Part shown: positions 16,152-19,890 of the stretch, piece by piece
Position numbering within the stretch: the first letter of the stretch is position 1
Layout of the letters: every line of letters begins with the position of its first letter
Assembly: GCA_017483575.1 (NCBI GenBank)
Contig: JAFUWF010000001.1
Span: 36,241-100,240 of the forward strand
Direction of reading: 5' to 3'
DNA from: Bacteroidales bacterium
Lineage (GTDB): Bacteria > Bacteroidota > Bacteroidia > Bacteroidales > P3
Length of the DNA stretch: 64,000 nt
Made by a program: the position numbers and the translations under genes
The notes under the pieces: generated by a model
Told to the model about the DNA's origin: nothing
Database searches by the model: none
The model's input: the letters and a program-made list of their open reading frames with translations, nothing else

Positions 16152-16367
16152 ATGAGCAAATACGAGATACCGTTTCTTACGACTGCAATACAGGCTTTTG
16201 GGCAGCGCTTCGCGATGACGCGACAGGCGGCGTTCAACTACCTGCATCAGCATAAGGGACTAGCATTCCTGATAGAGTTCTACGATGTGGAACACCTGCA
16301 GTCGATGGATGAGACCGTCGACGACCTGCTCGTTATCTGCCAAAAGAACGGAGGCACACTCGCATGA
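16152..16367 (+). CDS. DUF3791 protein, first gene of a toxin-antitoxin-like module
   Basis: 71 residues, all alpha-helical in appearance. The pattern AFNYLHQHKGLAFLIEFYDVEHLQSMDETVDDLLVICQ fits DUF3791, a short family nearly always next to DUF3990. It overlaps the next gene by 4 bp (ATGA), which implies coupled, stoichiometric expression. No experimental function is known to me; antitoxin or specificity partner is an inference from context. Confidence 0.72.
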   Translation: MSKYEIPFLTTAIQAFGQRFAMTRQAAFNYLHQHKGLAFLIEFYDVEHLQSMDETVDDLLVICQKNGGTLA

Positions 16368-16852
16368 AACTATACCACGGCACAAACGCTGATATTGAAT
16401 CGATAGATATTAGCCAAGGTTTGATATACAAGGACTTTGGCAAGGGGTTCTATGCAACTCCTGACCGAGAGACTGCCGTCCGCATGGCACAAAAAAGAGC
16501 AAGACTCTTTGGCGGGACAGCGACACTGATAACCTATGAATTTAACGAAACAGCGCTACAGTCCGAATTGAATATCAAACAGTTCCCCGAGAAGGCCACG
16601 GTGGAATGGTTTCTGTTTGTAGACGCAAACCGAGACAGGAAAAACACTGAGCCTGTGCACTCTTACGACATTGTCATCGGACCGATTGCCAACGATGGCG
16701 TTGTGTTGCAATTGACCAACTACCGGGAAGGCATCTACTCCCCCGAACAGGCGGCCCGACTGCTGCAGGACAAATACCTTGACCAGCAATACTATTTCGG
16801 AACAGAAAGAGCCCTACGATACCTAAAAAAAACAAACTCCGAAGCAGTATGA
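16364..16852 (+). CDS. DUF3990 protein (ADP-ribosyltransferase-like fold)
   Basis: 162 residues. MKLYHGTNADIE, DFGKGFYATPDRETAVRMAQKRA and YDIVIGPIANDGV are the DUF3990 signatures. They parallel the H...Y...E/Q layout of ADP-ribosyltransferases (YHG at the start, GFY in the middle, a C-terminal acidic or polar turn). A toxin-like role is inferred from the fold and from overlapping, very small partners on both sides. Base composition is lower in GC than the flanking housekeeping genes, in line with transfer. Confidence 0.75.
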   Translation: MKLYHGTNADIESIDISQGLIYKDFGKGFYATPDRETAVRMAQKRARLFGGTATLITYEFNETALQSELNIKQFPEKATVEWFLFVDANRDRKNTEPVHSYDIVIGPIANDGVVLQLTNYREGIYSPEQAARLLQDKYLDQQYYFGTERALRYLKKTNSEAV

Positions 16853-17100
16853 ACCGACCCACACATCACCAGATAGCTACATACCTAACCGACTACGTCC
16901 TGAGTGAGTTGGTAAAGTACACCATGGAAGATACGGGTTGCAAGCTTGAAGATGCATTGGTAAAAGTCTATCAATCTCCAGTATTAGAGGCCTTGCAGGA
17001 TGAGGAAGGTGAGCTATATGTGCAAAGCCCTGCCTACATATATGATATGATGAACACCACTCCAGTATTTGTCTCTCAACGGGCAAAAGGAGCACTTTAA
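16849..17100 (+). CDS. small helical partner protein of the DUF3990 module
   Basis: 83 residues. The stretch TGCKLEDALVKVYQSPVLEALQDEEGELYVQSPAYIYDMM resembles short proteins found beside DUF3990 genes. It overlaps the DUF3990 gene by 4 bp. No catalytic motif is visible; it may be a second regulator or antitoxin. A second copy of the terminator-promoter repeat begins 37 bp downstream. Confidence 0.6.
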   Translation: MNRPTHHQIATYLTDYVLSELVKYTMEDTGCKLEDALVKVYQSPVLEALQDEEGELYVQSPAYIYDMMNTTPVFVSQRAKGAL

Positions 17101-17137
17101 TAGACCCCGACCGACATTATTTCCCACCATGTTTTTT

Positions 17138-17190
17138 CGGACTGGCAAAAGAAAAATTTTGCCAGTCCGTTTTTTGTTTGTATCTTTGCA
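17138..17190 (+). promoter_or_regulatory. terminator-promoter repeat, copy 2
   Basis: Nearly the same 53 bp as at 16016: inverted repeat CGGACTGGCA/TGCCAGTCCG, T-run, TTTG inside the right arm (17157-17160), 19 bp, TATCTTTG (17181-17188). The hairpin can end the DUF3990 transcript while the embedded promoter starts the methyltransferase transcript, giving a leader of about 275 nt. Confidence 0.75.
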
Positions 17191-17460
17191 GTCGCTTTCG
17201 AGAGCGAAAGCATGAGGAATGCCGGTGGCATTCCGAACAAGAAAAGCATTTGCTTATTCGGAGAACGTCCTTGAAGTTTGGCCACAGATAGACGCCTCTA
17301 CAGAATACAGCAGATGTCCACTTTATGTGGACTTCTGAATTGTCTGCAGAAGCGGGTTAGGCCAAACACCCAAGGACGTGGACAAGGATGATGTCCACGT
17401 TTTTAGTTACAGGGTGTTTGGGTTAGCTGTACGTTCACGAGGATTATGCTTTACGTACAA
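17191..17460 (+). ncRNA. highly structured leader or small RNA before the methyltransferase
   Basis: No supported ORF. Stem-loops seen by eye: GCTTTCG/CGAAAGC (17194-17211); GGAATGCC/GGCATTCC (17216-17234); CCGAACAAG/CTTATTCGG (17233-17261, one mismatch); GTCCAC/GTGGAC (17316-17332); a nested pair CCAAACACCC/GGGTGTTTGG (17362-17421) enclosing ACGTGGAC/GTCCACGT (17376-17400); TGTACGT/ACGTACA (17428-17459). GTTTGGCC (17276-17283) is also fully complementary to GGCCAAAC (17360-17367), so two foldings exclude each other. This is the shape of an attenuator or a separate structured RNA. No known RNA family was recognised. Confidence 0.55.
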
Positions 17461-17474
17461 CTAACAACGACCCA

Positions 17475-18494
17475 ATGGTTACAAGAACATCACGGCTGCA
17501 AGGCAGCAAACGAAAACGGGACGACGAATACTACACGTTGTTCCAGGACATAGCGGACGAAGTGAGCCACTACCTGCCCCAACTGCGAGGCAAGCGTATA
17601 CTGTGTCCCTGCGACTGGGATGAGAGCTACAACGAGGAGATTGTCTACAAGGAAGAGGGCTATGTGCTTGGGCGTGGACTGTTTGGTGCCGAAGGCACGA
17701 TCAAGAATATAGACATTGCGGGCACACGTGAGAAGATAGAGAAGCGGATGGACAGGGTGAAATGCCAGTTTGTCTACTATCTGCTCAACCAGGCCGAGGA
17801 GGCCGGCATCCGCTCCATCAGCGTCAGCGGCTACAATCCGCAGACTGGCGAGGGGGTGCGGTTCCAGGACATCGACTACAGTTATTATGATGTCATCATC
17901 ACCAATCCTCCGTTCAGCCAGTTCGACGAATTCATAGACCTGATGGTCAAAAACGGCAAAGAGTTTTTGGTCATAGGTCCGCAGACAGCACCTACGGAGA
18001 AAATCATCATCCGTCATTTCCAAGAGGGGAATATCCGCATCGGCTATCACTACCATCTGAGCGGTTTCAACCGTCCGGATGGCTCCACACTGCCCAAGCA
18101 ACACAACACGCCCCGCAGCTGCATGTGGTACACCAACCTTCAGGTGGATGCTGACGACAGGGAACTGACGCTGATGGCCTCGTATTACGACAATCCGGAG
18201 AAATATCCGAAATACGTGAACTACGATGCCATCGAGGTTCCAACGGTGGCAGATATACCCAACGACTATTATGGCGAGATGGGCATACCAGTTACTTTTA
18301 TGCAGAAGTACAATCCAAAACAGTTTGAGATTATTGGATCGAGTAGTCAATTAAGCAAACCACTGAAACCATTGGTAGAGGTTGATGCCGTTTATACGGG
18401 CGGTGGCCGTGGACGTTTTTATCTTGATGAAGGGAATAAGCACTATCGCAGGTTGTGGGACAGAATGGTAATCAAGCGCAGAAAGGAGGAATAA
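17475..18494 (+). CDS. EcoRI-family adenine-specific DNA methyltransferase
   Basis: 339 residues. The catalytic motif TNPPF is at residues 143-147. A CPCDWDES segment (about 45-52) and a NTPRSCMWYTNL block are typical of the EcoRI-methylase family. It would transfer a methyl group from SAM to N6 of adenine. EcoRI itself acts on GAATTC; the site here is not known. ATG 17475 is 15 bp after the structured leader and the gene lies 4 bp before a DUF262-HNH nuclease gene, which suggests a modification-restriction pair. Confidence 0.85.
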   Translation: MVTRTSRLQGSKRKRDDEYYTLFQDIADEVSHYLPQLRGKRILCPCDWDESYNEEIVYKEEGYVLGRGLFGAEGTIKNIDIAGTREKIEKRMDRVKCQFVYYLLNQAEEAGIRSISVSGYNPQTGEGVRFQDIDYSYYDVIITNPPFSQFDEFIDLMVKNGKEFLVIGPQTAPTEKIIIRHFQEGNIRIGYHYHLSGFNRPDGSTLPKQHNTPRSCMWYTNLQVDADDRELTLMASYYDNPEKYPKYVNYDAIEVPTVADIPNDYYGEMGIPVTFMQKYNPKQFEIIGSSSQLSKPLKPLVEVDAVYTGGGRGRFYLDEGNKHYRRLWDRMVIKRRKEE

Positions 18495-18498
18495 ACAA

Positions 18499-19599
18499 AT
18501 GAAAGTAAAGGAGCTATACGACAAAGTTGTCAACGGTATTATAATTAGCGACATTGAGTTGCAACGAAACATTGTCTACGATGCCGACAAGCAGGCAATG
18601 GTAATCGATAGCCTGTATAAAGGCATACCGCTTCCGGCATTCTATCTATGGCAGCGCGAAGACGGCAAGCTGGAGGTGCTTGATGGCAAGCAGCGCATCG
18701 AGGCCATCAAAAAGTTCAAGCAGGGCAACCTGTTGTACGAAGGCAAGTCGTGGAAGGCCTATGCTTACGAAAGCGACTTACAGCAGGTGGTTGATAACAC
18801 AGAACTCACAATGATTGTCTGTAGTGGCGACGAGAAGAAGAAGCGCGAGATATTCAAGCGCATCAATACGCTCGGTGTTGCTCTCTCCAAGTTCGAGGTG
18901 CTTAACGGTTTGTACCACGGCGAATATATCGAAGGACTGAACTACTACTTCGCCAACGACGCGAATGTCCGCAAGGTGTTGCCGAATGCCACCGTCGACC
19001 GTGGTGACAATAAGTACCACCTGCTTGAATACATATACTATGTGCGCAACAACAGCGTTTTTCCAAAACGTGGTGAACTGGACGATTATGTGCAGCAGCA
19101 CAAAGACGAGTCGTTCAATGACGATGTCAAGAAGATAAAACCCTATATCAGTTTCATTAGAGATGTGTTTGGCGATGCATCCAAGATTGGCAATGTGCTG
19201 AAGTTCAAACTTGCGGTGAAGTACATAAAAGACCGTGCCATTTGGTTGCAGCACAAAGACGCGATTTGCAAGGATTGCAACGCATTCATCAAGAGTGAGG
19301 GATACAAACTTTCACCCAGCAGAGAGGATGATATCGAGGCTATGATAGTCGGCATTGTGGGCAACTTACGCGTGGATTCCAAACGGCTATTCACGTCGGA
19401 TGACAAAGCGCAACTGCTTTCCACCCAAAAAAAGAATGAGCAAGGGCTTTATAAGTGTGCAAGATGTCACCAGCATTTTGAAGCCGACGAACTGACCATC
19501 GACCACATCAAGCCTTGGAGCAAGGGAGGGCGAACGGTACTGTCAAACGCCCAGTTGCTGTGCAGGGCATGCAATAGTGAGAAAGGGAACAAGGAGTGA
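18499..19599 (+). CDS. DUF262 (ParB/Srx-like) protein with C-terminal HNH nuclease
   Basis: 366 residues. The N-terminal DUF262 domain has the LEVLDGKQRIEAI motif (D62-GKQR). The C-terminal HNH domain has two CxxC pairs (CARCHQHF, CRACNSEKG) around DELTIDHIKPWSKGG with the metal-binding D335-H336. DUF262 domains resemble the NTPase/nuclease part of GmrSD-type restriction enzymes. Only 4 bp from the methyltransferase, it is the best candidate for the cognate endonuclease. Lower GC than the flanking housekeeping genes suggests transfer. Confidence 0.82.
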   Translation: MKVKELYDKVVNGIIISDIELQRNIVYDADKQAMVIDSLYKGIPLPAFYLWQREDGKLEVLDGKQRIEAIKKFKQGNLLYEGKSWKAYAYESDLQQVVDNTELTMIVCSGDEKKKREIFKRINTLGVALSKFEVLNGLYHGEYIEGLNYYFANDANVRKVLPNATVDRGDNKYHLLEYIYYVRNNSVFPKRGELDDYVQQHKDESFNDDVKKIKPYISFIRDVFGDASKIGNVLKFKLAVKYIKDRAIWLQHKDAICKDCNAFIKSEGYKLSPSREDDIEAMIVGIVGNLRVDSKRLFTSDDKAQLLSTQKKNEQGLYKCARCHQHFEADELTIDHIKPWSKGGRTVLSNAQLLCRACNSEKGNKE

Positions 19600-19659: not shown

Positions 19660-19697
19660 CATCGGAGCGGCCGAATGGCCACTCCGATGTTTTGCCT
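19660..19697 (+). terminator. terminator after the DUF262-HNH gene
   Basis: Arms CATCGGAGCGGCC and GGCCACTCCGATG pair with one mismatch around GAAT, followed by TTTTGCCTTTTT. A near copy of the hairpin is at 19859. Confidence 0.7.
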
Positions 19698-19722: not shown

Positions 19723-19890
19723 TTTGTCGTATTCGAAAAACTGTGTACTTTTGCAGAAAATTTCGAATAGGAATATGGCGCAATATATTCAACGTTCTGT
19801 CTATCTGAACAAAATGTCCCTCTTTTAGACATCCGAAAGATTATAAATCCAAACGTAGCGGAGCGGCCTAATGGCCGCTCCGATGTGTAT
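19723..19890 (+). ncRNA. short predicted transcript with its own promoter and terminator
   Basis: A perfect promoter (TTTG 19723-19726, 19-bp gap, TACTTTTG 19746-19753) is followed about 120 nt later by a perfect hairpin CGGAGCGGCC/GGCCGCTCCG (19859-19882). Between them is one 17-codon ORF from ATG 19775 (MAQYIQRSVYLNKMSLF) after GGAAT. It may be a small RNA, a leader peptide or the remnant of a deleted gene. In the rest of 19600-20035 I see no gene. Confidence 0.45.

Follow-up and report, generated by a model that had tools for sequence, protein, structure and literature searches.

The locus and its features

The leader described here lies on the + strand of a 64,000-nucleotide stretch of DNA from a Bacteroidales bacterium (the window; assembly of 1,958,866 bases, 77.67% complete), where it occupies positions 17190-17474, up to the ATG of a methyltransferase gene at 17475. 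A promoter box precedes it, and no further TAnnTTTG box is present in 17200-17475. The features of the locus are as follows.

17181..17188, + strand: promoter box TATCTTTG, TAnnTTTG type, from the sequence; the box is also found 5' of the RNA in relatives
17192..17234, + strand: two variable 5' hairpins (17192-17211 and 17216-17234) outside the conserved core, from the fold
17245..17254, + strand: P0 hairpin AGC-AUUU-GCU, from the family alignment and fold; loop UU in 60/60 members
17255..17259, + strand: pseudoknot strand UAUUC, with its partner GAAUA at 17303-17307 across P1, from duplex energies, fold and helix comparison
17265..17283, + strand: strand A, the 5' side of P1 (17265-17273 and 17276-17283) with invariant AA at 17274-17275, from alignment and fold
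17293..17354, + strand: P2 (17293-17303 with 17344-17354) enclosing P3 (17311-17321 with 17327-17337), from covariation and fold
17355..17379, + strand: strand B, the 3' side of P1, pairing with A or C, with invariant GG at 17355-17356 and CC at 17369-17370, from fold and switch tests
17372..17404, + strand: hairpin T, terminator-like, with a U-run at 17400-17404 and 13 bp in the full fold, from alignment and fold
17412..17421, + strand: strand C, predicted to pair with B once transcribed and to displace A, from duplex energies and partition function
17422..17465, + strand: hairpin D before the start codon (17422-17433 with 17454-17465), from the fold; in relatives generally no stronger than in shuffles
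17475..18494, + strand: EcoRI-family adenine methyltransferase (PF13651), by family match
18499..19599, + strand: nuclease with GmrSD N-terminal (GmrSD_N) and HNH domains, by family match

On the 5' side of the leader lie a DUF3990 gene and a small partner (16364-17100), the partner being matched only by PADLOC models (PDC-M13). DUF3990-like gene pairs are also seen by eye 3' of two other RNA copies in the window's own genome (L202 and L205). Two similar GC-rich terminator-like hairpins (CGGAGCGGCC...GGCC..CTCCG), about 190 nt apart, follow the nuclease gene at about 19660-19695 and 19853-19890. A 20-codon ORF starting at 17212 in the window, a candidate for a leader peptide, is missing, by eye, in the homologue L005.

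Fold of the window leader

The + strand of the leader folds at -113.2 kcal/mol (z -8.05), and none of 200 shuffles was as good, more structure than expected by chance; the - strand gave z -11.04, again with 0/200 shuffles as good. The pairings, the 10-bp and 8-bp arms and the promoter box quoted in the first-pass annotation are present exactly as given. Its two mutually exclusive pairings are real, the first being understated: GTTTGGCC (17276-17283) pairs with GGCCAAAC (17360-17367), and this 8-bp helix is continued by ACGTCCTTG (17265-17273) with CAAGGACGT (17371-17379), so that helix P1 (17265-17283 with 17360-17379) comprises 17 bp in two helices around an internal loop. In the second pairing, part of the 3' strand of P1 pairs instead with 17412-17421 and encloses the terminator-like hairpin. 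This nested hairpin has outer arms of 10 bp (CCAAACACCC, 17362-17371, with GGGTGTTTGG, 17412-17421) and inner arms of 8 bp (17376-17383 with 17393-17400), and it is mutually exclusive with P1. A short pseudoknot between 17255-17259 and 17303-17307 crosses P1.

When each pairing is forced on the full leader, A-B has an energy of -110.1 and B-C of -113.2 kcal/mol, the pseudoknot not being counted. The predicted fold changes with the 3' end of the RNA, from A-B at 17406 to B-C at 17421, 17430 and 17474. Hairpin T and P1a have AAGGACGU in common in the window, and T is predicted to exclude P1. In the window, hairpin T also pairs with its own U-run, a trait known from intrinsic terminators.

A large family of structured RNAs in Bacteroidota

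A search with the methyltransferase yielded 35 homologous loci from uncultured Bacteroidales, Prevotella and relatives, many of them from rumen or ruminant-stomach samples by title. The covariance model R1 detected the RNA at E < 1e-5 in 20 of the 33 loci scanned (L006 and L009 were left out), one of them (L023) being partial at a contig end. Among the 13 loci without the RNA, five are titled Patescibacteria-type, Bacilli or unclassified bacteria, and eight have methyltransferases with 52-60% identity. The leaders of 52-60% identical methyltransferases (L025-L030, L037, L038) look similar by eye and have the AGCATTCGCTATTATTTCG start, with E 0.18 at best when scanned with filters off by R2, a second model built from an alignment of 60 members; they are perhaps a distant subfamily. 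In L016 the methyltransferase is 85% identical and its leader, at 38.8 bits, ranks as a distant member; it looks as though this leader had been replaced and yet retained.

Beyond these loci, R1 matches were obtained in 31 of the 120 genus genomes and, in the order, in 36 of 393 genomes sampled (21 of 206 genera), with at most five places per genome (both at E 0.01). R2 matches 36 of 395 sampled genomes of the phylum in 18 of 171 genera (E 0.001), including other orders and classes, and finds six places in the window's own genome. No Rfam 15 family (4227 families) reaches its gathering score over the RNA in the window or in 40 related loci; at E up to 5, three matches (E 1.2 to 4.2) fall in 17000-17600, none of them within the leader core and each far short of the gathering score. 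A blastn search of phage and plasmid collections with 17100-17600 gave no match, and an exact 19-mer of the commonest P0 form occurred 0 times in viral contigs, one exact word being a weak test. The leader is a member of a large, apparently undescribed Bacteroidota family of structured RNAs, and no description of it was found among the titles, abstract openings and passages of open-licence papers.

Some members have unusual neighbours. In L099 a DUF805b motif (RF02914, 1701-1736) lies directly 3' of the family member, before a small secreted-like protein. A different-looking structured leader elsewhere in the genus, in L004 from 1501 (G036) and in L053 (G092), begins with the same ~39 bases (hairpin TCGCTTTCGAGAGCGAAAGC and AAGAAAAGCATT) as some window-type leaders, and in L004 it precedes a lipoprotein-like ORF. 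In L102 an apparent second, partial copy of the RNA is seen by eye in tandem, ~100 nt downstream of the first.

Covariation, strand and conserved core

The compensatory changes that the first-pass annotation had proposed to seek by covariance search in homologous leaders were found. In 18 leaders aligned with MAFFT, 94.6% of cells are paired against 88.8% in shuffles, and both sides change in 18 of 45 pairs against 8.0 in shuffles. In 60 members aligned to R1, paired cells amount to 92.7% against 68.0% in shuffles and 34-40% in slid controls, and both-side changes occur in all 45 pairs (653 such cells against 190 in shuffles), numbers that lean upward because the structure guided this alignment and relatives enter the count as separate sequences. 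Together with the switch tests described below, these two alignments indicate that the two exclusive folds are kept by compensatory change, in agreement with the attenuator or riboswitch logic originally proposed.

Counted across all 45 pairs of the 60 members, G.U cells number 188 and A.C cells 52. Since A-C could form a wobble only with the opposite strand as the RNA, this ratio, with the position of the promoter box, places the RNA on the + strand; the 18 close members alone (G.U 32, A.C 25) would not decide the strand. A TAnnTTTG box lies within 250 nt 5' of the RNA in 51 of 60 members, against 18 when the opposite strand of that stretch is read and 6.9 expected from shuffles, and within 200 nt upstream in 42 of 58 members of a partly different set (L113-L172). 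An RNA on the minus strand was considered for the z of -11.04 and for two A-C mismatches in P2 of the window copy, which would be G.U on that strand, and is rejected on the same 188 G.U and 52 A.C cells.

The strong folding of both strands might also reflect an element acting at the level of DNA, such as an insertion target or recombination site that travels with mobile cassettes and works through its fold as single-stranded DNA. That restriction systems and lipoproteins occur side by side behind the family is reminiscent of mobile cassettes. The excess of G.U (188) over A.C (52), the promoter box, the kept spacing to the gene and the lack of arrays in the listed places, save what may be, by eye, a partial second copy in L102, make such an element very improbable. 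An integron attC-like site was likewise ruled out by eye from the order of the arms and the lack of arrays in the listed places.

Comparison of the members shows a core of P0, P1, P2, P3 and a pseudoknot, together with a terminator-like U-run hairpin that has bases in common with P1. In the pseudoknot, the UUAUUC that follows P0 is predicted to pair with a GAAUA(A) located in the P1 loop. The longest helix of the pseudoknot has a mean length of 6.82 bp (5.02 in shuffles), with 40 different helices among 60 members; the best 5% of a member's own shuffles is reached in only 19 of 60, and the helix of the window itself is 5 bp. The mean duplex energies are -7.6 for own, -6.14 for swapped and -4.35 for shuffled partners. 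Several unpaired bases are nearly invariant, namely UU in the P0 loop (60 and 60 of 60), AA in the internal loop of P1 (59/59 and 60), CC opposite AA (60 and 57 of 60) and GG before strand B (58 and 60); lying within covarying helices, they are what a binding site would be expected to look like. The U-run after hairpin T is kept (mean 6.1 T in the best 7 nt of 60 members) and is interrupted in some close homologues.

Predicted switch between alternative pairings

Strand B is predicted to pair better with its own downstream sequence (mean duplex energy -17.35) than with that of other members (-12.15) or with shuffles (-10.2). In partition functions of the RNA up to the U-run, the probability of P1b exceeds 0.5 in 59 of 59 members (L083 of the 60 could not be scored). 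Once the next 60 nt are added, P1b is retained in 15 of 59 members, and in 41 of 59 strand B finds a partner downstream. Over all 60 members, such downstream pairing occurs with 41 of 60 own sequences, against 28 of 1200 shuffled (2.3%) and 44 of 480 swapped ones (9.2%). When the 59 members are sorted by hand according to the first gene, the flip is seen in 33 of 35 restriction-linked members against 8 of 24 others, a count that ignores relatedness, 12 of the 35 being close kin of the window. Comparison of the predicted folds shows, in this sense, that strand C after the U-run takes B from P1 in nearly all restriction-linked members scored.

Of the 59 members, 18 show no downstream pairing of B, chiefly members that precede secreted proteins. 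A subfamily with P0 like AAAGCGUUUUAGCUUU (L090, L094, L096, L099, L101, L102, L105-L107, L110, L111) mostly precedes secreted or lipoprotein-like genes, and in the fold test it is without the strand C switch. In several members of this AAAGCGUUUUAGCUUU type, a repeat of the 5' strand of P3 is seen by eye in the loop of the 3' hairpin, which suggests another alternative pairing.

For RNA ending at the U-run, the mean probability of hairpin T is 0.40, and it exceeds 0.5 in only 25 of 59 members, so that termination is not the default in the model. The switch might instead act on translation, with no transcript end at all, the B-C pairing and hairpin D near the AUG opening or closing access of the ribosome. 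Hairpin D of the window ends 9 nt before the ATG, its 5' end is common to an extended B-C pairing, and strong hairpins end near the ATG in several relatives by eye. Against this, the U-run after hairpin T is kept, and the fold of the 45 nt before the start codon is close to that of shuffles (mean -5.34 against -4.44 kcal/mol, sd 3.07), and therefore hairpin D is not a general feature of the family. A translational switch is considered unlikely, and the next reading in line after attenuation of transcription.

Genes behind the leader

For the analysis of downstream genes, 60 loci were fetched out of 101 rows (40 in the table of the genus and 61 in that of the order, rows that include the window twice and three reverse-strand echoes); the rows not fetched comprise eight places of the window type in the genus and, from the order, mostly places of lower rank. 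An ORF of at least 60 codons, chosen mechanically from ATG and longest first, starts within 320 nt 3' of the RNA in 59 of 60 loci (median 64 nt, range -2 to 292), and a second promoter-like box lies between RNA and gene in only 2 of 59.

DNA methyltransferase or restriction-like proteins of types I, II, IIG and III are encoded by 32 of the 59 first genes, and the remainder is mixed. Among the 32, 28 were assigned by their own family match, two of these (L132, L139) only to ResIII, and the rest by likeness to L120 (L119), by a match just below the cut-off (L125) or by likeness to L125 (L129 and L134, both without a PADLOC match at 1e-20). The Pfam tally over the 59 first genes is N6_Mtase 11, C5 methylase 4, N6/N4 methylase 4, D12 3, and one each of Tsp45I, EcoRI methylase, the MmeI target-recognition domain and DarT; by comparison, genomes of the genus hold about three PF02384 matches each (191 in 59). 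Other first genes encode an HKD-Snf2-like helicase (L131), a dynamin-type GTPase (L156), an EVE-like protein just below the cut-off (L149) and, by eye, HTH-like small proteins (L117, with no Pfam match, and L122) and many secreted or lipoprotein-like proteins. Within the window's own genome, one copy precedes an N6/N4 DNA methylase (L203) and one a methyltransferase-fold protein (L202). Behind the RNA, L142 and L147 have a related pair of proteins of unknown function and then a long gene with a similar start; the L147 protein has no Pfam match and the L142 protein no PADLOC match.

Restriction of the leader to EcoRI-type methyltransferases, to which the first-pass annotation had tied it, is excluded, these being one of many contexts. 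In the phylum sample, no restriction gene is seen by eye as the first ORF in 15 places in genomes other than the window's, where the RNA precedes mostly small secreted-like or unknown proteins, some places being without a nearby ORF; the restriction link is thus so far seen in Bacteroidales. In the reciprocal direction, the RNA was found on the strand of the gene in 0 of 30 top canonical HsdM-type loci, with 1500 nt of flank searched, so that an RNA further up the operon would be missed; one weak match (L233, E 0.0062) lies on the opposite strand to the gene in the table. It follows that most such systems do without the RNA.

The compact core, its own promoter box, the terminator-like end and the several copies per genome might also suit an independent small RNA, an option named in the first-pass annotation, of ~215 nt, with its 3' end at the U-run (~17405) and working in trans or through binding to a protein of the system, with read-through into the gene. 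Against such an RNA stand strand C, which lies beyond the U-run and coevolves with B, the rarity of a promoter-like box before the gene and the fixed spacing to very different genes, and it is judged improbable. A cis-acting leader is favoured over it by its position, by the second box being confined to 2 of 59 loci, by the terminator-like hairpin and by the coevolving strand C beyond T.

Proposed mechanism

With moderate confidence, the leader can be regarded as a cis-acting, bistable, riboswitch-like transcription attenuator of a broad Bacteroidota family. When the polymerase is at the U-run, the core would compete with the terminator T. Stabilization of the core, presumably through a small ligand or protein that contacts the invariant AA, GG and CC, would allow transcription to continue, and its destabilization would end the transcript at ~17405. 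Because strand C comes after the U-run, it would matter only in read-through transcripts, where it would take B from the core, which would be undone once C is made. The leader would thereby set expression of the whole operon and not the ratio of the two enzymes. A timing of the methyltransferase against the nuclease, as first suggested, does not follow, because both genes lie behind the leader and its relatives precede other kinds of genes, namely type IIG and type I/III systems and secreted proteins.

A further possibility, put forward tentatively, is that the family is a new class of common RNA sensor, for a ligand or a protein, that turns defence operons on and off for restriction types I, II, IIG and III and other DNA-defence genes across Bacteroidales. 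Such a sensor switch would act, for example, upon infection or entry into a new host. Safe switch-on of restriction-modification systems in a new host and their later tuning are known mainly for control proteins. Antisense RNAs are described for a few such systems (PMC3874152). One fold before many restriction types would mean a shared, host-read DNA-defence signal in a phylum abundant in gut and rumen, and the family is large, with a defined switch point and nearly invariant bases.

Relation to known systems

JUMPstart- and EAR-type leaders are RNA elements before long, horizontally moving operons, like the leader family here. Unlike these, as far as compared by Rfam scan only, the leader family has its own terminator-like hairpin and an alternative pairing. 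JUMPstart appears in a table of Weinberg 2010 (PMC2864571), passages of which describe other Bacteroidota motifs. The crcB and pfl motifs treated there are riboswitches with intrinsic-terminator platforms, in which, as in the leader, a helix of the conserved core competes with a predicted terminator and near-invariant unpaired bases lie inside covarying helices (PMC2864571). Unlike these motifs as they appear in those passages, the leader family is without an Rfam match, its first genes are largely restriction-modification or defence-like instead of coming from a single metabolic pathway, and its extra strand beyond the U-run is predicted to undo the core.

According to passages of a review on restriction control, antisense RNAs transcribed from reverse promoters control the EcoRI and Eco29kI restriction-modification systems (PMC3874152). 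Control of the operon would likewise be at the RNA level here, and the methyltransferase of the window is also of the EcoRI family; in contrast to the antisense RNAs, the leader is a sense RNA, and its fold precedes many unrelated restriction systems. The word riboswitch is absent from the accessible text of that review (PMC3874152), as is the word restriction from that of a transcriptome paper on B. thetaiotaomicron (PMC7366714). A flavobacterial transcriptome study reports 64 structured 5' regions, some without an Rfam match (PMC9723704), and members of the leader family could be among them; parts of the family may also be among the candidates listed in PMC8040213. Flavo-1 (RF01705) and Bacteroidales-1 (RF01693) are also computationally found structured RNAs of Bacteroidota, and neither matches the leader RNA. 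Flavo-1 occurs in one fetched region (L213), ~3.5 kb from a family member.
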